DNA from: Leptonema illini DSM 21528
Lineage (GTDB): Bacteria; Spirochaetota; Leptospiria; Leptospirales; Leptonemataceae
Direction of reading: 5' to 3'
NCBI RefSeq assembly: GCF_000243335.1
Contig: NZ_JH597773.1
Coordinates: forward strand, 2,792,983-2,856,982
Length of the DNA: 64,000 nt
Part shown: piece after piece, positions 38,487 through 59,219 of the stretch
Layout: each line of letters begins with the position of its first letter
Numbering within the stretch: the stretch's first letter is position 1
The notes under the pieces: model-generated
What the model was told of the DNA's origin: nothing
Database searches by the model: none
The model's input: the letters and a program-made list of their open reading frames with translations, nothing else
Translations under genes and position numbers: made by a program

Positions 38487-39764
38487 ATGCGCACTATGGA
38501 GCCCATCGATCTACTACAAGAAGAGAACCGTCGCCTCAAAAGTCTGACGGAATCGTTCTATCTTCTTAACTCTTCTCTCGATCTGCAGACGGTGCTACAT
38601 AATACGCTGACTCAGGCGACCGAGCTGATGAATGCCGAGATCGGCTCCATCGCCCTTCTGAACGACGAGCGCACGCACCTTGTTTTCGTCGAATCCACCG
38701 ATAAAAAGTTCAGTCTGCTCAAACAGCTTCAGGTTCCCATCACAAAAGGCATCGCCGGCGCCGTAGCGATGAGTGGCCGCTCTGAACGCATCGCCGATAT
38801 TCGCAACGATCCGCGCTACTACGGTAAGGTCGATCAGACCCTCGGCCATGCAACCTACTCCTACCTCTGCGTTCCGCTAATCGTAAACGGCGAGATCATC
38901 GGCACGGCTCAGCTGCTCAATCGAAAAGACGGACAGGTTTTCACCGAAGAGGACGAACGCCTGATGGAAGGGTTTGCGAGGCAGGCCAGCCTGGCCATTC
39001 AAAACGCCCGAATGCATGCCATCATGCTCAAACAGAAGGCCATTGAGTCCGAGCTTTCCGTCTGCTCCGAAATCCAGCAGAAGCTCTTTCCCGACGCCCC
39101 GCCGCAGTTGCCCGATTACGAGATCTACGGCGAATCGACGCCCTGTCGCGAGGTCGGCGGCGATTATTACGGCTATTACAAACGCCCCGACGGAACGATC
39201 GACTTTATCCTTGCCGACGTTTCGGGTAAGGGGTTGTCGGCCGCTCTGCTTGTTAGCGAGTTCCATACGGGCATCCGTATGCTTGATGCGCTCTCGGACG
39301 ATCTCGCGACGGCGGTCAATATTCTGAACCGCCACCTTGTCGAGACGATCGTCATCGGCCGCTTTATCGGAATCTTCCTGCTGCGACTGTTTCCCGATAC
39401 GGGCCGGGCTCAGTATATTCTTGCAGGCACTCCTCCGCCGTATCTTTACAAGGCGGACGGCTCCGTGCTCGAGTTCGAAACGACGGGCCCGGTCCTCGGC
39501 CTCAAAGGAGCGAACTACAGAGCGAACGAGATAGAGATCGGTCGCGGCGATCTTCTGCTTGCCGTCTCTGATGGTTATACAGAGGCCATGAACCCCGCCG
39601 ACGATCTTTTCGGAGAGGATCGTCTCAAGGCCATCGGCGTGGAATGGTTCCGGTCGCCCGTCGACCAGATTGCCGTCGAAACGAACCGCCTGGTCGACGC
39701 CTTTCGCGAAGGCCGCGCCGCAAACGACGACGCTACGATGATGATCATCAGGCGTCTGCCGTAG
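38487..39764 (+). CDS. GAF-SpoIIE (PP2C-type) serine phosphatase
   Basis: 425 residues from ATG 38487 (38496 also possible). A short coiled coil, then a GAF domain at residues about 20-180 (ATELMNAEIGSIALLNDERT, VPITKGIAGAVAMSGRSERI, YSYLCVPLIVNGEIIGTAQL). A linker helix with ELSVCSEIQQKLFPDAPPQL leads into the SpoIIE/RsbU phosphatase: REVGGDYYGYY, FILADVSGKGLSAALLVSEF, LLLAVSDGYTEAMNPADDLF and ANDDATMMIIRRLP carry the metal-binding acidic residues, all intact. It probably dephosphorylates an anti-sigma antagonist in partner switching in response to a small ligand. It follows kdsD closely. Confidence 0.9.
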   Translation: MRTMEPIDLLQEENRRLKSLTESFYLLNSSLDLQTVLHNTLTQATELMNAEIGSIALLNDERTHLVFVESTDKKFSLLKQLQVPITKGIAGAVAMSGRSERIADIRNDPRYYGKVDQTLGHATYSYLCVPLIVNGEIIGTAQLLNRKDGQVFTEEDERLMEGFARQASLAIQNARMHAIMLKQKAIESELSVCSEIQQKLFPDAPPQLPDYEIYGESTPCREVGGDYYGYYKRPDGTIDFILADVSGKGLSAALLVSEFHTGIRMLDALSDDLATAVNILNRHLVETIVIGRFIGIFLLRLFPDTGRAQYILAGTPPPYLYKADGSVLEFETTGPVLGLKGANYRANEIEIGRGDLLLAVSDGYTEAMNPADDLFGEDRLKAIGVEWFRSPVDQIAVETNRLVDAFREGRAANDDATMMIIRRLP

Positions 39765-47990: not shown

Positions 47991-48229
47991 AACGGCAATG
48001 TAATGGAAAAGACGGCCACAGTCAAAATGGATTTCCTTATGCCTTGCAGGCTTTCCACTAAACTCACGCCAGCCCGCCCGTTCCGTCCGCGTAATGAAGA
48101 ATGGTCGAGCGACAGCGCCTCGCGTCAAAACAGAACAGTCGACTTTTTGAGTCCAATTGCCCCATTCCGTAAATTTTTTTGCATCCGTTCCGCTCATTCC
48201 GCACCTTGAAGTTCAATGAGAGGTTCCCT

Positions 48230-48793
48230 ATGCCACAATTCCTGACATTACCGGAGGAGGTGGCCGCTGTCTTCGGTGATGCCGCCCCAAAATTTGTTGA
48301 CTTTCTCGTCTCTACCTTCTCTCTACAGAAGGAGGAAGTCGCTCATATGTCAGCACTCACGTTCGAAAATAAGCTCGAGAAAGCAACCGGCGTCATTCGT
48401 CTGGAGATTGCCGAGCTGCGAACCGACACGCAAACCGCCATCGCCGAACTCAGGACTGACACACAGACCGCCATCGCCGAACTCAGGACTGATACACGGA
48501 CTGCCATCGCCGAGCTCAGGACTGAGATGCAGGCCTCTATTGGTGAACTCCGGACTGAGGTGCAGACTTCTATCGCCGAATTGAGAACAGAGACTCAATC
48601 ATCTATAGCAGAGGTTCGTCTTGAAGTTGCAGAGCTGCGCGCTGAAATGAAGGCAGACTTCGCCGATGTTCAGAAGCAGATATCGGGGCTTCATAAAGAC
48701 ATCACCTCGCAGACAAAGTGGATTCTTGCCGGCCTTGCGACAGCAGTAACGATGTATCCGATCCTTGTGCGCCTGGTGGATCGGTTAATCTAA
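48230..48793 (+). CDS. Coiled-coil repeat protein with C-terminal membrane anchor
   Basis: 187 residues from ATG 48230, preceded by GAGAGG. After a short N-terminal domain (PEEVAAVFGDAAPKFVDFLV) comes a coiled coil built of 11-residue units, IAELRTDTQTA and variants, repeated about six times (residues 60-125), then LRAEMKADFADVQKQISGLH and a hydrophobic C-terminal helix (KWILAGLATAVTMYPILVRL). The layout resembles DUF1640-type or other tail-anchored coiled-coil proteins whose repeat number varies between strains. Function unknown; perhaps a filament or scaffold at the membrane. Confidence 0.7.
   Translation: MPQFLTLPEEVAAVFGDAAPKFVDFLVSTFSLQKEEVAHMSALTFENKLEKATGVIRLEIAELRTDTQTAIAELRTDTQTAIAELRTDTRTAIAELRTEMQASIGELRTEVQTSIAELRTETQSSIAEVRLEVAELRAEMKADFADVQKQISGLHKDITSQTKWILAGLATAVTMYPILVRLVDRLI
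48407..48604 (+). repeat. Six tandem 33-bp repeats encoding 11-residue coiled-coil units
   Basis: Units at 48407, 48440, 48473, 48506, 48539 and 48572. The first four are very similar (ATCGCCGAACTCAGGACTGA as core), the last two more diverged. Each unit encodes IAELRTxTxTA or a variant. The near-identity of units 2 and 3 points to recent copy-number change by slippage or recombination. A partial seventh unit follows. Confidence 0.9.
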
Positions 48794-49736: not shown

Positions 49737-51020
49737 ATGACCCTCGAACGACGACCCGATGAAAAGCAAACCGCTCTGATTGAAGAGCGCATAGGAGAAA
49801 GGCCCGTCTTTTCGGCCTATGAAGTCGGACGGGCAACGATCATTCGGGAGACGCTTCAGGCGCAGACCGGCTACAGCTTCACTCTGCCGCGGGAAGATCA
49901 GAGCCCGGTCGAAATTTTTGAGCTGTATCAGGAGTTTCCAGAGCTGGATTTCCTGCCCGTACGCGACGGCTCCGGTTGGATTACGGGATACCTGACACGA
50001 CAGACGTTTCTGGCCTCGCTCAGCGAATCGCAATTCTCGCGTGATCTTCTTTTTAGAAAGGAGGCACGACTCAACAACCTGATCAATCGTGATATCGTCT
50101 GCCTGAACGCCCATACGAATCTTTCAGAGGCGTCCGAAATACTGATGCGCCGACCCGATCGGATGCGCTTCGATCCTTTCGTCGTCACGCTTGACAGGCA
50201 TTTCTTCGGCATCTCGACGGTGGATCGCGTCATTCGCGGAATCAACTACTTCCTCACCCGCGAGATGGAAGCCGTGCGCGATGCGCAAGTCCGAATCCTC
50301 GAAGCGCCCTGTATTCCCCCGGAAATCGAGCATGAGCTTCGCCATCATGCCCATGTTCAGCCCTTTCAGGGACCGGGCGGGGACTTTGCGAAAGTCTATG
50401 AAATCGATGATCGCTTCGCTGTGGCTACGCTCTTTGACGTTTGCGGGAAGGGCGTAAAGGCGGCCGCTATGGTTTCGGTACTCGGTACTCTTCTTCATAC
50501 GATGTGGAAGGAGTTACAGAAACATCCTTCGTTCAGTCTTCGCACTCTCGAAAACGAGCTTTACAGATTGAATAACGAGCTTGTGAAGCTCAGCTCTCTG
50601 GAGATGTACGCTACGGGCGTCGTCTGCCTGATCGACAAACAGAATTACGTGCTCTCAGTATTTGATTACGGCCACGGGATGATCTGGCTTAGAAGAAACA
50701 ATCGCGTACATGTGCTGCGAAATCCCGGCAGTGATCCATCGATGCCTTTTATCGGCATTACCGAGAATCTGCGTCTGAATCCGTTTTCGTTTCGCATCAA
50801 ACCTGGCGATCTATTGCTTACCTGTTCCGATGGCATCGTTGAACAGGCAAACCATAACCGGGAGATGTACGGGCCCGTTCGAGTGATGGAGGCCTTTCAG
50901 ATCGCCTCGGCGGATTCATTACCAGAGATGAACAGACAGATTCTCGATGACTGGACGGAGTTTCGAGGTGGCGCCCGCATTCGGGACGACCTATCTCTCC
51001 TACTTTTGCAGATCGATTAG
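49737..51020 (+). CDS. SpoIIE (PP2C-type) phosphatase with CBS-like N-terminal domain
   Basis: 427 residues from ATG 49737, where GAGG lies nine bases upstream; 49731 is an alternative. Residues about 45-160 look like a pair of CBS-like modules (IFELYQEFPELDFLPVRDGS, GWITGYLTRQTFLA, and LSEASEILMRRPDRMRFDPF with VVTLDRHFFGISTVDRVIRG). The phosphatase domain has GPGGDFAKVYEIDDRFAVAT, LFDVCGKGVKAAAMVSVLGT, DLLLTCSDGIVEQANHNREM and GARIRDDLSLLLLQID, so catalytic Asp residues are kept. It is likely a ligand- or nucleotide-sensing partner-switch phosphatase. It lies upstream of argJ on the same strand, 134 bases apart. Confidence 0.85.
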   Translation: MTLERRPDEKQTALIEERIGERPVFSAYEVGRATIIRETLQAQTGYSFTLPREDQSPVEIFELYQEFPELDFLPVRDGSGWITGYLTRQTFLASLSESQFSRDLLFRKEARLNNLINRDIVCLNAHTNLSEASEILMRRPDRMRFDPFVVTLDRHFFGISTVDRVIRGINYFLTREMEAVRDAQVRILEAPCIPPEIEHELRHHAHVQPFQGPGGDFAKVYEIDDRFAVATLFDVCGKGVKAAAMVSVLGTLLHTMWKELQKHPSFSLRTLENELYRLNNELVKLSSLEMYATGVVCLIDKQNYVLSVFDYGHGMIWLRRNNRVHVLRNPGSDPSMPFIGITENLRLNPFSFRIKPGDLLLTCSDGIVEQANHNREMYGPVRVMEAFQIASADSLPEMNRQILDDWTEFRGGARIRDDLSLLLLQID

Positions 51021-51154: not shown

Positions 51155-52456
51155 ATGGGCGATCTGTTTCTTCCCGCCGGATTTCGGGCCACAGGCTGGC
51201 GTATAGGCGTAAAAGAATCAAACTCTACAAAAGAGGACTTCGGCGTTCTTTTCAGCGAGACGCATGCAACGGCGCATGGCGTTTTCACGAAAAATCGCTT
51301 CCCGGGCCATCCCGTCGTCGTCGGTCGCCGCCATATTGAAGGGGGACGCCTGCGACTTATTGTCGTCAACTCAGGCAACGCAAACGTCGCCAACGGCCCT
51401 GACGGCCTGGCGCTCGCCGAAGCGGAATGCGAACGCGCCGCCGCCTCTTTGCAGATCCAATCCACCGAAGTGCTGCCTTCCAGCACTGGCGTCATCGGTC
51501 GCCCCATGCCGGCTGAGAAGATCCTGACTGCCTGCGACGCCATCAAGGACCGGTTACAGAATTCCGATCCGATGTCCTTTGTTCGCGCGATTATGACGAC
51601 CGATAGATTCCCCAAATATCGTTGTCTGCGGTTATCGCCTGGATTCGCGTTAACAGGAATCGCCAAAGGCGCCGGTATGATCGAGCCGAATATGGCTACG
51701 ATGCTCTCCTATATGTTAACCGACGCCGAAATCGACGCAGACGATCTGCGACGCTGGTTGCCTTTCCTGGCGGACCGATCCTTTAACCGTATATCGGTCG
51801 ACTCCGACACGTCAACAAGCGATACGTTCGTTATTCTCGCAAGCGGAGCAAGCGGCATTCGCGTTCGCATTCGTCCCGAAGACGTCGCCGGCCTGCGTTC
51901 GATGGCCTTCGACGACATGGAGACGCTTCTTCAATCTCTTTACGTAACGGATCCGGCCGGCCTCGTTGAGGCGTCGAACTTCTTGCAGAATCGATTGAAT
52001 ACTGATCCGACCTCGGCGACGTTTATGGCCGCTTCACTTCAGGTGGCGCTTTATCTTGCTCTGCAGATCGTACGTGACGGCGAAGGAGCGACGCGCATCT
52101 TTCGCGTCATCGTCAGAGGAGCAAGAGATGGCGAACAGGCGATGAAGATCGGCAGATCCATCCTCAACAGCCCGCTTGTAAAAACGGCCGTATTCGGCGC
52201 CGATCCGAACTGGGGACGCATCATGGCCGCCGTCGGCAAGGTCTTCGATGAACAGCATCCCGACCCAGAGATTCGCGTCGGCCCGCATCGTATGTATCCT
52301 CCGGGTCATGCGACGCTCGCCGATCTTGAAGAACAGATGAAGCAGGAAGAAGTGGATTTCACCGTCCATCTTGGAGCCGGTAATGCATACGAAATCCTGT
52401 ACGGCTGCGATCTTACGGAAGCATACGTGCGGCTGAATTCCGAGTACACCACATAG
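51155..52456 (+). CDS. argJ: Glutamate N-acetyltransferase / amino-acid acetyltransferase
   Basis: 433 residues. Arginine-pathway enzyme that recycles acetyl groups between acetylornithine and glutamate. Typical blocks: GFRATGWRIGVKESNSTKED, VNSGNANVANGPDGLALAEA, VLPSSTGVIGRPMPAEKI and the self-cleavage site GAGMIEPNMATMLSYMLTDA, where Thr of MATML becomes the nucleophile of the beta subunit. The second half has ISVDSDTSTSDTFVILASGA and AVFGADPNWGRIMAAVGKVF. Its stop abuts the next gene's ATG, so the three genes to 56113 probably form one operon, although their products look unrelated. Confidence 0.95.
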   Translation: MGDLFLPAGFRATGWRIGVKESNSTKEDFGVLFSETHATAHGVFTKNRFPGHPVVVGRRHIEGGRLRLIVVNSGNANVANGPDGLALAEAECERAAASLQIQSTEVLPSSTGVIGRPMPAEKILTACDAIKDRLQNSDPMSFVRAIMTTDRFPKYRCLRLSPGFALTGIAKGAGMIEPNMATMLSYMLTDAEIDADDLRRWLPFLADRSFNRISVDSDTSTSDTFVILASGASGIRVRIRPEDVAGLRSMAFDDMETLLQSLYVTDPAGLVEASNFLQNRLNTDPTSATFMAASLQVALYLALQIVRDGEGATRIFRVIVRGARDGEQAMKIGRSILNSPLVKTAVFGADPNWGRIMAAVGKVFDEQHPDPEIRVGPHRMYPPGHATLADLEEQMKQEEVDFTVHLGAGNAYEILYGCDLTEAYVRLNSEYTT

Positions 52457-53677
52457 ATGGCGTCGCTGCGAAGATTTCTATATCGTCGGTGGAGTTCTTT
52501 CCTCGCCGGGATGCTCATCATCGCAGGCTATACATACCTGCAATCGGCGATTTTCCTCGTCGGCTACGAGCAGGAACTTGCCACCGTCATTTTTGTGGTG
52601 CTCGCCGTCGTCATCCTGATTCCTGTGCGCGACTATCTGCTTGAGCCGTTTCTGACCTTCCCTTCCTGGGAGACGTTGATCGAAACACAGCAGCATCACC
52701 TTGAGTTTCTTGCCCGTCCGTTCACGCTGCAAACGCTGCTGAATCAGATCATGCCCGATTTGATGATCTGGCTTCGAATCCCCGATGCGCGCCTTTTTAT
52801 TCTGCAGCAGGAAAGACGCTTCTTCGACATGCATGTTTACCGTCGCGGCGCTCTTAAGGGATCAAGACGAATCACTCGAAAAAACGTCATCCCCATAACG
52901 CGCATGTTCCGGCAATTCGGGCGTGTCGCTCGTCGCGAAGATCCGACCGTTCCCGAACACGTCGAAAAGATTATGGCGGCCTACCGCATCGCCATTGCCG
53001 TTCCGTTTATTCATCGCGGACGACTGCTTGGAATGCTCATCTTCCATCATCCTACGCAGAACCGACACGCCGAGCGCGGACTCGAACTGTTTGCGGCAAA
53101 GGCGGCGATAACCATTCACGATCATATTCTGAAAAGCCGCATGCAGAACATCGCCGAGTATGACGAAGAGCTGCGTATAGCGACAAAGATAAGGCAGATG
53201 CTTCAGATGCAGGAAGCGCCCGAGGTTCCAGGCTGGGTGCTGAAAACGGGCCGTATTCGCTCCGCCACGCTTATAGAGTACTTTCACACCAACGATCGTC
53301 AGTATGCGGTGCTGCTATCGACGAAGGCGGCCGGCGGAGTACAGGCGATGATTCTTTCCGGAGCGCTCGGCTATCTATTTGCAACCGTTCGTATCAAGGG
53401 GCCCTCCCTTCGCCTCTCATCGCTTCTACGACGGATGCAGCAATACACGCAGGAAAACGACCTGACCGGAAAGCTTGAGATTCTCGTCGTCGGATTGCGA
53501 CCCGGCGCAAAAGAGATGACCGTCGCCAGTATGGGTAGATCTTACCGCCTTTTAAATGAAGACGGTGAAGAAACGGCTCTGCCGCCTGGCCGTACGACCT
53601 TCCGCTGTCGCCCCGATTCGACGATTTCCCTGCACTACCAGGATGAGGAGATACTGAGTTTCTCGAAACTCCCGTAA
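52457..53677 (+). CDS. Membrane protein with GAF-like domain and degenerate SpoIIE phosphatase domain
   Basis: 406 residues; ATG follows directly after the argJ stop. Two hydrophobic helices (SSFLAGMLIIAGYTYLQSAI and TVIFVVLAVVILIPV), a GAF-like domain at about 85-235 (PDLMIWLRIPDARLFILQQE, IAIAVPFIHRGRLLGMLIFH), then a SpoIIE-like region with EELRIATKIRQMLQMQEAPE and WVLKTGRIRSATLIEYFHTN. The acidic positions expected for metal binding (GGDYY and DVSGKG blocks) read IEYFH and STKAAGG, so catalysis is unlikely. It may act as a pseudo-phosphatase partner or a sensor for the active enzyme encoded 3 bases downstream. Confidence 0.65.
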   Translation: MASLRRFLYRRWSSFLAGMLIIAGYTYLQSAIFLVGYEQELATVIFVVLAVVILIPVRDYLLEPFLTFPSWETLIETQQHHLEFLARPFTLQTLLNQIMPDLMIWLRIPDARLFILQQERRFFDMHVYRRGALKGSRRITRKNVIPITRMFRQFGRVARREDPTVPEHVEKIMAAYRIAIAVPFIHRGRLLGMLIFHHPTQNRHAERGLELFAAKAAITIHDHILKSRMQNIAEYDEELRIATKIRQMLQMQEAPEVPGWVLKTGRIRSATLIEYFHTNDRQYAVLLSTKAAGGVQAMILSGALGYLFATVRIKGPSLRLSSLLRRMQQYTQENDLTGKLEILVVGLRPGAKEMTVASMGRSYRLLNEDGEETALPPGRTTFRCRPDSTISLHYQDEEILSFSKLP

Positions 53678-53680
53678 TCC

Positions 53681-56113
53681 ATGTTGCACAATCTTCGCAT
53701 ATCCATTCATTATCCGATCGCGATCTCTTTGCTTGCCGCGCTCTATCTCTTCCTGTTCAACGAGCCGGTCATGCACCCTCCCGTATATTATATGGGAGAC
53801 GGACTCGTCGTTCTTTCAGAGACTCCTGAAATAGAAGCCGGGACAAGGCTCGTCTCGCCTTATTGCAGAGCTTTCGAGGCAGGCAAGTTTCTATGCAGCA
53901 TTCGCAGCAACAGCGCCGTCCTTGATATCGTTCTACCCGGAAAAACGATCAACGCCGCTGAGTTTCTGCGACTCTTTCATATTCCGGTTCTTCTCAGCTT
54001 CCTTCTACTTTTTTTCGCCGCGTGGTTTCTCGACAACAGTCGCGACTTTCTGATATCCTCGTTCTTTTTCTGGCTAACCATATTTGTCGTCCTCACTCTC
54101 TATACGATCCTGTACGACAGAGCGGTCGTGGTCTGGACGATGCTCGGGTATTTCGTTCCGATCACCCTGCTCAATCTCAATCTGCGTATTTCGGGTCGGA
54201 TTATCAACGCCCGTCTTCTCATCACAGAAAGCGTGCTTCTTCTATTTCTCGGGCTGCTTGTACTGGCGGCCGAAGGATCGACGGGCTTTCGATCTGGAAC
54301 CATCCAGATCATCTCACTGCTTTTCTGGTCGGTTACGGCGTTATCCGTAATGATCCAGGTGATGGCGGCTTTCGATAAAAGCAACGATCGTATTGATCGC
54401 GTCAAGAAAATCGTCGCCTCGGCCGGAACTCTGCTCGGAGTCGCCCTGCCCGTCGCACTGCTGCTTTATCTTCCGAATTTTTTACCGGGATTCTTCTATT
54501 TACTGCTGCTGATTTTCTTTCCTCTGTCATTGATCTACGGTACCTACCGGATGCATCTTGTACCGTTTCAGTTCTTCGTCACGCGCAGCATCGCCGCCGC
54601 CCTGTTAACATTCCTGTTTCTTGCCATCTATTCGGTCGTTCTCTACGTTTATTCGATGGCGCTGCCCGAGACAGAGAATCGCTGGATCGTCAACACGGTA
54701 TTTCTTCTTCTCCTGGTGTTTTTTCTCGATCCGCTGCGAACTCGCATCAGCTCTTTTATCGAGCAGCGATTTCTGCTGCCGCGCGGAGAACACAGCGAAT
54801 CCTTGAAACGACTGGCCGAGATCATTTCGCGATCCTCCCGTCCGCGTGTCGCCGTCCAGGCTATCCTCGATGAGATCAATCAGACGCTGGGATTGCAGCG
54901 TAGCTACTTCCTGACCGCCCCTGACTTCTTCTTCTATCTTGATCTGCGAGAGCAGCATGTTCTTCGTCTTTCAGCCGGTTCGCCGATCTGGTCTCTTTTG
55001 AAACCTGAGAAGATGCACTTTGCAGCATATCTCACCTACGGCACAGGAGCACGCAAAGAGCTGTTCGAATTCCTGTATCATAAGCGTATCGTTCTCGCCA
55101 TAGGTCTCGGCGAAAGACGCAACCTGATCCAGAGGATACATGCGGTGATTGATGGACGCCTGCGCTCACCGAAAAAGGCGGCGACTTCAGAGAATCTCGC
55201 CTGCGCATTTCTCGTGGGTTACCCGCACGGTCGCGACAGGCTGTATCTGCATGAGATTCGCTACTTGCAGGAAGCGGCACGCCTCGCAGGCATGATGCTC
55301 TTTAACATGCATGCTCTGATTCGCGAGGTGGATAAACGCAAAAAGGTGCGCGACCTGCAGCAGAGCGGACAGTATCAGAAGCTTTACACGCTCAATCCCG
55401 ATCCGCCATCCGATACGCTCGACTATCGCTTTTTCAACCGCCCGGTCCTATCGGTCACTGGAGACTACATCGACATCGTCCGGTTGGATTTTCAGCGAAC
55501 GGCCGTTTTTCTCGGCGACGTAAGCGGGCATGGTCTCGGTACGGGATTTCTCGTAAGCGCGCTGCGAGCCATCGTGCGTACGTCGATCGGATCAGGAAAA
55601 ACTCTGCCCGAGGTACTCGACATCCTGAACGAATTCCTCACCGATCGATACAGCGGCTATGAATTTCTCACTCTTTTTGCCATGATCCTGAATCTCCAGG
55701 ACGGCCGTATCGAGTATATCAATGCCGCCCATCCAGGAGCTTACCTGAAACTACCTGGAGGCCCTCTGGAAAAGCTCGAGAATACGCAGCGTCTGCTCGG
55801 CATCCTTCCCGGTCCTTACAAGAGCTTTACGTATCAGATCAAGCCGGGGCAGAGAGTCTTTCTTTTTTCGGACGGCGTTCTTGAGACGGCTAACTCAAGA
55901 GATGAGTTTTTCGGCGAGAGCCGGCTTGCGGCCTTCCTTACCGAGAAAGGCGACGATCCGCTTGATGATGTCGTCGCAGGATTGCAGACCTCGCTGATCG
56001 GTTTTCGAGGATCGGCTCCTCCAGGGGACGATACGAGCTTTCTCGTTCTTGAATACCTGCCGGCCCGCTCTCTGCTTGATTTTGTGCTTCGGGGCCTTGG
56101 CATCAGGCGTTAA
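53681..56113 (+). CDS. Seven-helix receptor SpoIIE (PP2C-type) phosphatase
   Basis: 810 residues. N-terminal helix, an extracytoplasmic region of about 65 residues, then about seven further helices to residue 345 (for example LLSFLLLFFAAWFLDNSRDF), recalling 7TM receptor-type histidine kinases. A cytoplasmic GAF-like region at about 370-560 (PRVAVQAILDEINQTLGLQR). The phosphatase domain is intact: VTGDYIDIVRLDFQRTAVFL with Asp595, GDVSGHGLGTGFLVSALRAI with Asp613, RVFLFSDGVLETANSRDEFF and SAPPGDDTSFLVLEYLPARS. It probably reads a membrane or periplasmic signal and dephosphorylates a regulator. It overlaps nothing; the degenerate phosphatase gene immediately precedes it. Confidence 0.85.
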   Translation: MLHNLRISIHYPIAISLLAALYLFLFNEPVMHPPVYYMGDGLVVLSETPEIEAGTRLVSPYCRAFEAGKFLCSIRSNSAVLDIVLPGKTINAAEFLRLFHIPVLLSFLLLFFAAWFLDNSRDFLISSFFFWLTIFVVLTLYTILYDRAVVVWTMLGYFVPITLLNLNLRISGRIINARLLITESVLLLFLGLLVLAAEGSTGFRSGTIQIISLLFWSVTALSVMIQVMAAFDKSNDRIDRVKKIVASAGTLLGVALPVALLLYLPNFLPGFFYLLLLIFFPLSLIYGTYRMHLVPFQFFVTRSIAAALLTFLFLAIYSVVLYVYSMALPETENRWIVNTVFLLLLVFFLDPLRTRISSFIEQRFLLPRGEHSESLKRLAEIISRSSRPRVAVQAILDEINQTLGLQRSYFLTAPDFFFYLDLREQHVLRLSAGSPIWSLLKPEKMHFAAYLTYGTGARKELFEFLYHKRIVLAIGLGERRNLIQRIHAVIDGRLRSPKKAATSENLACAFLVGYPHGRDRLYLHEIRYLQEAARLAGMMLFNMHALIREVDKRKKVRDLQQSGQYQKLYTLNPDPPSDTLDYRFFNRPVLSVTGDYIDIVRLDFQRTAVFLGDVSGHGLGTGFLVSALRAIVRTSIGSGKTLPEVLDILNEFLTDRYSGYEFLTLFAMILNLQDGRIEYINAAHPGAYLKLPGGPLEKLENTQRLLGILPGPYKSFTYQIKPGQRVFLFSDGVLETANSRDEFFGESRLAAFLTEKGDDPLDDVVAGLQTSLIGFRGSAPPGDDTSFLVLEYLPARSLLDFVLRGLGIRR

Positions 56114-56125
56114 CCGGAGTCTGGC

Positions 56126-56908
56126 ATGCTTGAAACGACACGGCAGCTGTTCGACGAGATCCATGCGACTTATAACAAAAGAATTTACGTGCAGAGCGAT
56201 CCGCTTCGCTACGTTTATCGCTACGAAAATCCGGAGGATCGCGAAATCGTCGCTCTCCTGAGCGCTCTTTTCGCCTACGGACGAGTTGCGTCCATCTTCT
56301 CGTTTCTGGACAGGCTCTTTCTTCGGCTCGGCCCGAATCCGGCAGCGACTCTTTGCGAAACTCGCATCACGGGAAGAGATCTCTATTATCGATTTCAAAC
56401 ACAGAAAGATACGGAGCGTCTGCTGGCCGTTCTTGGCGAATGGTTGCAGAGGCGATCGTTTCCGATTCTTGAACGTCCCGTCTCGCTCGACATCTATGAT
56501 GCCATCGACACCCTGATTGACGAGCTAACGGCATCGATTCCCGCCGCGGGACGAACGCAGGGCTGGACGTTTCTGGTCGGCAAACCCGGAGCCAGATCGG
56601 TGGCGAAGCGATGGTGTCTTTTCTTTCGCTGGATGGTGCGCAGAGGTCTTCCTGACCCGGGACTTTACTCTACGATTCGCCCCGACAGGCTCATTTATCC
56701 GCTTGATACGCACATCCTCAAGATTGCCCGCTGGCAATCGCTTACGTCAAGACGCTCGACAACAAGAGAGACGGCCCGGCAGATCACGGCGGCCTTTAAG
56801 AATCTTTCTAAATCCGATCCTTTGAAATATGATTTTGCTCTTACCCGACCCGGCATCCTGAATGATAGAGCTCTCCTCGACAGGCTTCAGCTCAATACTC
56901 TTATTTGA
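56126..56908 (+). CDS. TIGR02757-family protein (DUF2400)
   Basis: 260 residues with blocks typical of this family: YVQSDPLRYVYRYENPEDRE, IVALLSALFAYGRVASIFSF, RWCLFFRWMVRRGLPDPGLY and LIYPLDTHILKIARWQSLTS. Members are small, uncharacterised, mostly helical proteins found in several phyla, including spirochaetes and Bacteroidetes. The HEAT-like or nuclease-like fold has not been established. It starts 12 bases after the receptor phosphatase, so it may be the last gene of that operon. Confidence 0.85.
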   Translation: MLETTRQLFDEIHATYNKRIYVQSDPLRYVYRYENPEDREIVALLSALFAYGRVASIFSFLDRLFLRLGPNPAATLCETRITGRDLYYRFQTQKDTERLLAVLGEWLQRRSFPILERPVSLDIYDAIDTLIDELTASIPAAGRTQGWTFLVGKPGARSVAKRWCLFFRWMVRRGLPDPGLYSTIRPDRLIYPLDTHILKIARWQSLTSRRSTTRETARQITAAFKNLSKSDPLKYDFALTRPGILNDRALLDRLQLNTLI

Positions 56909-56968: not shown

Positions 56969-57649
56969 ATGTCTTTGCGAATCCTCTGTGTCGGCGCCCA
57001 TCCTGATGATGTGGAAATCGGCATGGGAGGGACGGTAGCGTCGCTTGTTCAGAAGGGCCATGAGTTGTTGCTTCTTGATTTAACAAACGGCGAACCCACG
57101 CCGTTCGGTTCGCCCGAGATCCGGGCGCGCGAATCGCAGGAATCGGCGGCCGTCCTCGGAGCACGACGTAAAACGCTGAGTATGCCTAACCGCTTTCTCG
57201 AAGATACGATCGACAATCGCAAGGCGATCGCCGCAGAGATTCGCGCCTTTCGCCCCGATTACGTGTTCGCCCCTTACTTCGACGACGCTCATCCCGATCA
57301 TATCGCCGCCTCTGCCCTTGTCGATGCGGCCCGCTTTTATGCGAAACTGACGAAGAGCGACATCCCCGGCGATCCGTTCTTCCCGAAGCGAGTGATCTAC
57401 TATTATCCGGTGCATCTGCGGCTTCGCATTCAGCCGAGCTTCTTGAACGACATATCGACGACGATCTCGACTAAAGCCGGAGCCATTCGGTGCTATCACT
57501 CACAGTTCGAAGCGGCCGGCAAGGCAGATCTCGTCGAACGTTTTCTCGACGAGAACCGCTACTGGGGATTCCAGGCAGGATGCGCGGCGGCCGAGCCCTT
57601 CTTTCAGAAAGAGATCCCGGCCTTTTCCTGGCCGGAGGGCTATATCTGA
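56969..57649 (+). CDS. BshB1-like PIG-L deacetylase (bacillithiol synthesis)
   Basis: 226 residues of the PIG-L/LmbE zinc deacetylase fold. RILCVGAHPDDVEIGMGGTV contains the zinc-binding HPDD and the EIGMGGT loop typical of BshB1; LLLDLTNGEPTPFGSPEIRA, then RESQESAAVLGARRKTLSMP, and YFDDAHPDHIAASALVDAAR carry the remaining metal ligands. BshB1 removes the acetyl group from GlcNAc-malate during bacillithiol synthesis. It lies 34 bases upstream of a BshC-like gene, which supports this role. Other PIG-L deacetylases share the fold, so the assignment depends on context. Confidence 0.8.
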   Translation: MSLRILCVGAHPDDVEIGMGGTVASLVQKGHELLLLDLTNGEPTPFGSPEIRARESQESAAVLGARRKTLSMPNRFLEDTIDNRKAIAAEIRAFRPDYVFAPYFDDAHPDHIAASALVDAARFYAKLTKSDIPGDPFFPKRVIYYYPVHLRLRIQPSFLNDISTTISTKAGAIRCYHSQFEAAGKADLVERFLDENRYWGFQAGCAAAEPFFQKEIPAFSWPEGYI

Positions 57650-57683
57650 TGATGGTCTTCTGTTCAGGAGAGTCGAGAATTCG

Positions 57684-59219
57684 ATGAGCGTAACGATCCA
57701 GCATGGCGTAACCGAGCTTGACGGATTGATCAGGCAGCATCTCGGGCGCCCTATTCCCGAAGCCGGTCAACAGATCTGCACCGAGACCATCCGTCTTTAC
57801 GCCGACGAACTGAAGGCATCCCTCGGCATAAAGGGACCTGTCTTTCTTGCCGGCCATCAACCGATCTTCTATCATCCGGGCATTCTTGCCAAAGATTACC
57901 TTGTACAGGCGCTCGTTCGCCGGCACGGCGGAACGGCCGTTTCGCTTATCCTCGACACCGACCAGGAAGCCATCGATTTCGCCTGGCCGGGTACCGGCAG
58001 GCATTCCATCGTGCTCTCGGACGTTAGTCGAATCGTCGCCGGTCAGCGTTTGAATCCCAGTCGCAAGGCGCAGCTTCTGCGTTCTATAGATCAGGCGTTG
58101 ATCGATCTTTCGGCGACGTTCACTCCGGCAGCGGCACAACGAGCTCGTCCGTATCTCTTTCATCTGCATCGGGCTGTAAATCAAACCGACGATATCGTAA
58201 CGATTACGAATTCCGTGCGCGAATTTCATGCCAGCCGTAACGGCTGGAAGATTGCGTTTCTCAAGGCATCCGACCTGATCAAAACAAGGGCCTTTCGCTT
58301 CTTTGCATCCGAGGTCTGTCGCCGACCCGATGAATTCCGTAATGTCTTTAATTTCGCCCTTGCCGAATACCGGCGCAAACACGACATCAAGAACCACGCC
58401 CAGCCCTTTCCCGACCTGAAAGAATCGGAGTTGCCGTTCTGGTATTCTCTTCACGGGAATCGCAGGCCTCTTGTGGACAGCGACATCCGCGAAGCCGGCC
58501 TTTTTGACGCCGGTAGAGACGCCCCCGCCTTTACTGCGCTGTTCGAGCAGGGGCATGTTCTTCCGCGAGCCATCACGCTCAGTCTATTTATGCGGCTTTT
58601 CGTCTGCGACCTTTTTGTACACGGAACAGGCGGCGGACGATACGATCGTATAACCGAAAAGGTCATCGAGCGCTTCTTTAACTGCCACGCGGCGCCGATC
58701 ACCGTCGCGACGGCCACTCTGCGTCTCGAAGCGAGAGCTGACTTCGCGCTACAGAGCCGAAGTCGAGAAGCCCTGCATGAAGAAGAGCGACGCCTGCTTT
58801 TCGATCCTGTACGCTTTCTGCCAGACGAATGCGCCCTGCATGCAGAAAGAGAAGTGCTGATCCACATACGACGACATTTGAGCGGACCGGACGGCCATCT
58901 GCTATACGAATCGCCTCTGCCTGATTTGCAAAGAGTGCGTCCTGCCTTTGCCGCCCATATGCAGCGTCTTGCATTGCGGTTAAAGAATCCGGCGATGAAC
59001 CCGCCGGCATTGCTGCATCGCGAATTCGTCGCCCTGAGAAGACGCGCCGCTCCTTATCTGAAACGACGACGAAAGCTGCTCGAACTGGAAGTTGAACGAG
59101 AGAAGCGCTGTGCTGAGAATCTGAGGCTTTTCACCGATCGCACACTGCCGTTCTTTTTCTACGATCTCGCAGAGATAGAAGAGGCAGTCAGGCCCTACGG
59201 CGACGTAACTCCGCCCTGA
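57684..59219 (+). CDS. BshC-like cysteine-adding enzyme (divergent)
   Basis: 511 residues. The N-terminal half recalls BshC: FLAGHQPIFYHPGILAKDYL corresponds to the TGQQPGLFTGPLYTIYKA-like block, and AVSLILDTDQEAIDFAWPGT to the EDHDFDE-like block. LFVCDLFVHGTGGGRYDRIT matches the conserved (L)FVHGIGG(A)KYD region, and the C-terminus ends with LPFFFYDLAEIEEAVRPYGD. BshC adds cysteine to GlcN-malate to form bacillithiol. The motifs are diverged from Bacillus BshC, so this could be a related but distinct thiol ligase. It lies directly after the BshB1-like gene. No BshA-like glycosyltransferase is in the window. Confidence 0.6.
   Translation: MSVTIQHGVTELDGLIRQHLGRPIPEAGQQICTETIRLYADELKASLGIKGPVFLAGHQPIFYHPGILAKDYLVQALVRRHGGTAVSLILDTDQEAIDFAWPGTGRHSIVLSDVSRIVAGQRLNPSRKAQLLRSIDQALIDLSATFTPAAAQRARPYLFHLHRAVNQTDDIVTITNSVREFHASRNGWKIAFLKASDLIKTRAFRFFASEVCRRPDEFRNVFNFALAEYRRKHDIKNHAQPFPDLKESELPFWYSLHGNRRPLVDSDIREAGLFDAGRDAPAFTALFEQGHVLPRAITLSLFMRLFVCDLFVHGTGGGRYDRITEKVIERFFNCHAAPITVATATLRLEARADFALQSRSREALHEEERRLLFDPVRFLPDECALHAEREVLIHIRRHLSGPDGHLLYESPLPDLQRVRPAFAAHMQRLALRLKNPAMNPPALLHREFVALRRRAAPYLKRRRKLLELEVEREKRCAENLRLFTDRTLPFFFYDLAEIEEAVRPYGDVTPP

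Follow-up and report, generated by a model that had tools for sequence, protein, structure and literature searches.

A ligand-less PPM protein encoded beside a receptor phosphatase in many spirochaete families: a candidate heterodimeric signalling unit

Why would a bacterium keep a degenerate phosphatase directly next to an intact receptor phosphatase? The question is raised by two adjacent genes of Leptonema illini DSM 21528, located in the 64,000 nucleotide stretch analysed here (contig NZ_JH597773.1, positions 2,792,983 to 2,856,982; “the window”). The first gene encodes a 406-residue protein (P) and the second a receptor phosphatase (R). The TAA stop codon of P is followed by TCC and then by the ATG of R at 53681. 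An earlier note, made from the sequence alone, had placed R three bases after P and credited it with intact metal ligands, and both statements hold. The note also suggested that the dead partner senses or restrains the active one. Our favoured reading, held with slightly better than even confidence, is that P may be the non-catalytic allosteric half of a heterodimeric receptor phosphatase formed with R.

Searches with the P sequence against Pfam, NCBIfam and the PDB returned only GAF or nothing useful, and none of the 25 close P orthologues matched the SpoIIE family PF07228 at E <= 0.01. The structure was predicted with AlphaFold2 from a 25-row alignment (mean predicted local distance difference test, pLDDT, 84.3; predicted template modelling score, pTM, 0.47). 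The model contains a helical hairpin (residues 2-35 and 39-62), a GAF domain, a linker (205-234 and 236-249) and a PPM-like domain, in which alpha1 (294-317) and alpha2 (320-333) are present and the last PPM helices are missing. The top Foldseek match in the PDB is the C-terminal domain of Escherichia coli RssB (6z4e, E 1.6e-8), followed by other RssB chains, RsbX and the SiaA PP2C domain. VIA-align superimposed P on Pseudomonas aeruginosa RssB (3f79_E) with Z 15.6 and a root-mean-square deviation (rmsd) of 3.1 Å over 169 residues, and on 6z4e with Z 13.1 and rmsd 4.1 Å over 170 residues. P residues 79-231 align with GAF domains at Z about 12-13. On its predicted structure, P thus has the PPM fold expected of a SpoIIE/PPM family member. 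The earlier note had proposed a SpoIIE-like scaffold and had named a different fold as the finding that would overturn it; AlphaFold2, Foldseek and VIA-align agree on a PPM fold in the C-terminal domain, and a different one was rejected on these predictions. The scaffold, which is incomplete at its end, makes up only part of the protein: ahead of it are a predicted transmembrane hairpin, a GAF domain and a linker helix. From their length and make-up, the two hairpin helices are predicted to cross the membrane, and the sidedness of P is predicted on the same basis.

The structural matches raise the possibility of an RssB-like adaptor role for P. In that case the pseudo-PPM domain of P would bind, deliver or sequester a sigma factor or an anti-sigma antagonist and R would act on the same client, in which case the two proteins share a pathway and an operon and need not touch. 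The best Foldseek matches are the RssB proteins of E. coli and P. aeruginosa, the closest superposition is that on 3f79_E, and the PPM domain of E. coli RssB is likewise C-terminally truncated and inactive (excerpts of PMC12143880). However, a fold match of this kind reflects shared PPM ancestry, not function. P shares the truncated, inactive-type PPM domain with RssB but gave no Pfam match to an N-terminal receiver domain, and has a membrane hairpin and GAF domain instead. The adaptor explanation also leaves unaccounted for the strict adjacency of P to one receptor phosphatase (66/66 testable genomes, see below), and we consider it unlikely.

Is the loss of metal ligands specific to the Leptonema protein? 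The ligands were scored in a joint alignment of R and P domains, comprising 67 P and the 63 R that were long enough. All five positions (D595, D613, D731, D783 and D784) are aspartate in 63/63 R. In contrast, the positions of D595 and D613 are aspartate in 0/67 P, and aspartate occurs at the D731, D783 and D784 positions in 6/67, 1/67 and 21/67 P, respectively; the alignment of C-terminal columns is uncertain in the truncated forms. The P of the window has lost every PPM metal ligand, as the earlier note had read from its sequence. That this is an oddity of the window is rejected by the loss of the D595 and D613 positions in 67/67 P. The deepest-branching P have glutamate at the D595 position in 17/19 and aspartate at the D784 position in 17/19. 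Deep-branching P keep a full-length PPM domain and 7 of 22 match PF07228 at E <= 0.01. Because the deep forms retain the full length, the D784 relic and these family matches, the sequences indicate that P descends from a PPM phosphatase, that its catalytic activity probably disappeared before the divergence of these families, and that the lineage of the window lost the C-terminal end later. From the missing ligands and the missing last PPM helices, P of the window is predicted to be catalytically inactive.

R is recognised by PF07228 (E 5.4e-41), as are 25/25 R members. Its AlphaFold2 model (pLDDT 79.7) shows, in order, an N-terminal helix, an extracytoplasmic beta domain, seven helices, a hairpin, a GAF-like region, a linker (523-570) and a full PPM domain, the last of which superimposes on the SiaA PP2C domain with Z 28.6 and rmsd 2.4 Å over 240 residues. 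Ten helices lie outside the soluble domains, namely the N-terminal one, those of the seven-helix block (100-288) and those of the hairpin (302-365). The seven-helix receptor of the earlier note is therefore correct for the block but does not count the N-terminal helix and the hairpin. The length and make-up of these helices suggest that they cross the membrane, and suggest their sidedness as well. No PDB structure covering the helical part of R was among the matches listed, which is not evidence of a new fold, and no Pfam match to a known 7TM receptor family was found (R at E <= 1; 25 R members at E <= 0.01). In the model, the extracytoplasmic domain followed by a seven-helix block is the arrangement of 7TMR-DISM receptors, which we take to be the appropriate label for this layout; R differs from these receptors in the extra hairpin before the GAF-like region.

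P can be aligned over its whole length with the C-terminal half of R, the hairpin, GAF, linker and PPM segments being collinear in the two, and the P hairpin (2-62) aligns with R residues 302-365. The P and R profiles matched each other in hhalign with E 2e-10 when built from 25 sequences each and with E 2.1e-27 (probability 99.8) when built from 68 each. A GAF-SpoIIE protein encoded in the window is as good a match to the P profile as individual R sequences are, but over GAF-PPM only, with the hairpin excluded. In a tree of the linker and PPM segments (73 rows), the 26 P form one clade and the 26 R another, with Shimodaira-Hasegawa-like approximate likelihood ratio test (SH-aLRT) values of 97 and 99, and the two clades contain matching internal groups. 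Three paralogues from the same genome are on long branches.

The earlier note had also made the conservation of the gene pair a test of its proposal, which withstands this test as it does that of the fold. In 66/66 testable spirochaete genomes, where testable means that the contig is long enough, P adjoins R on its 5′ side and has the same orientation; four further loci (L209, L210, L214 and L239) run off the contig end at the position of the partner. The 66 pairs comprise 25 from a first set (the window and 24 opened loci), 40 of 44 further loci, and one from genome G131. Searching 198 genomes of the phylum with P at E <= 0.001 gave matches in 30, and all 24 loci that were opened hold an adjacent, same-strand P-R pair. 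Profiles of 25 P and 25 R sequences matched 45/48 and 47/48 genomes, respectively, at the level of the class, paralogues included. Across 392 genomes of the phylum, P matched in 73 (E <= 1e-10) and R in 66 (E <= 1e-62). P was adjacent to R in 64 of these 66 R-containing genomes, and the other two are cut by contig ends. In G131 the P profile found no match, yet P adjoins R at the locus. Eight genomes have P-profile matches without R, mostly in long or otherwise different open reading frames (ORFs); in G189, the only one of the eight opened, the match is a soluble GAF-PPM paralogue. In a single pattern scan with R that reached beyond the phylum, the weaker matches extend over little besides the PPM domain.

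Of the 40 spacings measured, 29 are an overlap of exactly 4 bases, and the few large overlaps reflect the choice of start codon. The upstream neighbour varies, being argJ in the families nearest to the window (the immediate upstream gene in 23/25 pairs of the first set, window included) and thymidylate kinase in others. Because the flanking genes differ between families, the conserved unit is the pair, not the operon, and we rejected the idea that the pairing is an accident of the argJ operon, given that thymidylate kinase stands upstream elsewhere. The recurrence of P with R is more than chance. One explanation that draws on this arrangement is that the two form a pair for assembly only, P being needed for R to fold, insert or remain stable but taking no part in signalling itself. 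The overlap of the genes, in which P invariably comes first, and the equivalence of the two hairpins would suit it, but the GAF domain and linker are among the best-conserved parts of P and an assembly factor would not need them. We regard this explanation as quite improbable.

In three close genome pairs, the nonsynonymous difference (pN) was 0.022, 0.052 and 0.118 for P and 0.041, 0.045 and 0.129 for R, and the synonymous difference (pS) was 0.68-0.81, near saturation. These values indicate that P is under purifying selection, as is R. It is very improbable that P is a decaying remnant, or that it is active through a different ligand set. P is very divergent, to the point that none of 25 orthologues was recognised as SpoIIE, but its ORF has been kept in 66 genomes of many families, its pN is small against pS in all three pairs, and every P lacks aspartate at both N-terminal ligand positions. 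A spurious ORF or decaying gene was likewise rejected on the conservation of the pair, the uniform ligand loss and the purifying selection.

The distribution of conservation within P bears on what it retains. The linker is its most conserved segment (0.419, compared with 0.422 in R), followed by alpha1/alpha2 (0.35) and GAF (0.347). The strands that formerly carried ligands (b1-b3) score 0.293 in P versus 0.457 in R. P could be a non-cleaving decoy or a substrate-presenting subunit that binds the phosphorylated substrate, with the output of R set by competition. A PPM fold retained without its metal ligands would fit such a role, as would the finding that R never occurs without P where this is testable. 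However, a substrate-binding role is improbable when conservation in P is highest in the linker, alpha1/alpha2 and GAF and lower in the strands that surrounded the active site.

We propose a P-R heterodimer with control of the switch in trans because P keeps the dimer and switch elements and has lost the ligands. When SpoIIE dimerises, which it does through a long regulatory helix, the alpha1/alpha2 switch helices rotate and the metal site is completed. The dimers of RsbU and RssB rely on these elements too, with linkers that cross (excerpts of PMC5468089 and PMC12143880). The linker and alpha1/alpha2 retained in P fit a heteromer, since these same parts make the PPM dimers of SpoIIE, RsbU and RssB. 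The inference covers the heterodimer and its geometry, its allosteric control, the topology in the membrane and the identity of the substrate. P would be a dedicated, paralogue-like, non-catalytic partner of R. The two would be made from one coupled message and sit together in the cytoplasmic membrane via their equivalent helical hairpins, and would pair as a pseudo-symmetric heterodimer by way of their GAF domains, their linker helices and the alpha1/alpha2 switch helices of the PPM domains. R would contribute the seven-helix receptor part and the sole active site. P would add another GAF sensor, together with a switch-helix surface by which it sets the switch conformation of R in trans. This conformation would determine metal binding by R and, through it, activity on a phosphoprotein; the likeliest substrate is an anti-sigma antagonist of the STAS type whose gene lies elsewhere. 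That P and R are an obligate heterodimer, an ancient two-gene unit of the phylum whose dead subunit keeps only sensor, linker and switch surface, has in our estimate an even chance of being right. Because R was never found without P where contigs allow the test, we lean modestly towards P as a required positive or sensing subunit rather than a restraint on R.

Several observations weigh against a dedicated heterodimer. Conservation and overlap of two genes do not prove contact between their products, and R could form a homodimer, like its relatives. Some generic GAF-PPM paralogues, taken as single sequences, fit the P profile no less well than R, and the tree of linker and PPM segments did not show P and R to be sisters. 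The alpha1/alpha2 segment, on which switch control would depend, is less conserved in P than in R (0.438). Finally, the partial distance correlation between P and R is 0.78 in 11 genomes, barely above that of other neighbour pairs (0.63-0.72).

Where might the substrate of R be encoded? The earlier note had pointed to two further active phosphatases in the window, and both are confirmed by SpoIIE matches with ligands kept, the upstream one (49737-51020) with an additional weak CBS match and the other (38487-39764) with a GAF domain. The genome encodes 25 SpoIIE domains, so several of them in one window are not special by themselves. All five ligands are kept by 14 SpoIIE domains of the genome and by three in the window; 8 of the 25 were left unscored for all ligands (7 partly aligned and 1 unaligned). 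We identified 18 STAS and 6 HATPase_c_2 matches over the cut-off in the genome. As none of them is inside the window, the substrate of R is presumably encoded elsewhere. With 25 SpoIIE domains and 6 HATPase_c_2 matches, a small number of kinase modules may be shared by many phosphatases. Only a few of the six HATPase_c_2 matches are in short stand-alone proteins. At positions 2643371-2647500 of the same genome (L243), a STAS protein is encoded beside a large protein with HATPase_c_2 and SpoIIE domains, which by its domain content is a kinase-phosphatase fusion of the partner-switching kind.

The start of P directly adjoins the argJ stop (Table 1). Promoter and terminator scans gave signals below or near shuffle expectation. 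A DUF2400/TIGR02757 protein (56126-56908) is encoded directly downstream of R and retains this position across many family members. It is followed at 56969-59219 by a BshB1-type deacetylase (TIGR04001, 174 bits, slightly below the cut-off) and a 511 amino acid protein, which many genomes of the family also have downstream of P-R. We take the latter to be BshC from its position, and the two are probable bacillithiol synthesis genes. Upstream, a 204 amino acid ORF (48179-48793) contains a run of near-identical repeats (AELRTDTQTAI) and probably forms a coiled coil. Elsewhere in the phylum, locus L266 encodes a phosphoglucose isomerase (465 amino acids), a thymidylate kinase (about 205 amino acids), P-R and a peptidase S49 (about 830 amino acids), and the deep-branching loci L265 and L271 resemble it, with genes of 465 and about 205 amino acids upstream and one of about 830 amino acids downstream.

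Table 1. Coordinates in the window of the P-R pair, its predicted domains and the adjoining upstream gene
Feature	Coordinates	Strand	Basis or remark
argJ	51155..52456	+	ends where P begins
P, membrane GAF pseudo-PPM protein, 406 amino acids	52457..53677	+	ORF, Pfam, AlphaFold2, alignment
P residues 2-62, predicted helical hairpin (two putative membrane helices)	52460..52642	+	AlphaFold2 helices 2-35, 39-62; aligns with R 302-365
P residues 80-204, GAF domain	52694..53068	+	PF01590 E 1.4e-5; VIA-align Z about 12-13
P residues 205-249, linker helix, most conserved P segment	53069..53203	+	AlphaFold2, conservation scores
P residues 250-406, degenerate, C-terminally shortened PPM domain	53204..53674	+	alpha1/alpha2 (294-333) retained; metal ligands absent
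R, receptor phosphatase with intact PPM ligands, 810 amino acids	53681..56113	+	ORF, Pfam, AlphaFold2, alignment
R residues 100-288, seven-helix block	53978..54544	+	AlphaFold2; after one N-terminal helix and extracytoplasmic beta domain
R residues 302-571, helical hairpin, GAF-like region and linker helix	54584..55393	+	collinear with P
R residues 572-792, active-type SpoIIE/PPM domain (D595, D613, D731, D783, D784)	55394..56056	+	Pfam, alignment

Pseudo-PPM domains are already known, from RssB and from the eukaryotic protein TAB1. RssB of E. coli and P. aeruginosa, the best structural match of P, likewise has a PPM-fold domain after a linker helix. It differs in its receiver domain and its role as sigma-S adaptor for ClpXP, whereas P has a predicted membrane anchor and a GAF domain and is always found beside an active-type receptor phosphatase. 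TAB1 and other pseudo-PP2C proteins resemble P in having a PPM fold without phosphatase activity, but the excerpts of PMC5468089 do not describe TAB1 as encoded beside an active PPM partner. Among the papers listed in searches of the open-licence literature on pseudophosphatases, inactive PPM/SpoIIE-type proteins and such receptors in spirochaetes (PMC8638967 included), we found no description of a dedicated pair of pseudo and active PPM receptors. P-R is a strictly conserved signalling unit over many spirochaete families with no assigned function in the literature searched, and P suggests how RssB-like pseudo-PPM proteins arise and persist.

The phosphatases of the RsbU, RsbP and SpoIIE type share with P-R the order of sensor, linker helix and PPM domain, with the linker and alpha1/alpha2 as dimer and switch elements (excerpts of PMC5468089 and PMC12143880), and a conserved linker precedes the PPM domain in both P (205-249) and R (523-570). 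These phosphatases are described as dimers of one active polypeptide, and it is from such dimers that regulation of the type has so far been understood. In P-R, by contrast, one of two adjacent polypeptides is ligand-less throughout (67/67 P), which separates regulation by linker and switch from catalysis and makes that understanding directly testable. If the heterodimer model is correct, P-R would be a bacterial PPM counterpart of the kinase/pseudokinase receptor pairs, with an active-site switch controlled in trans by a dead partner.

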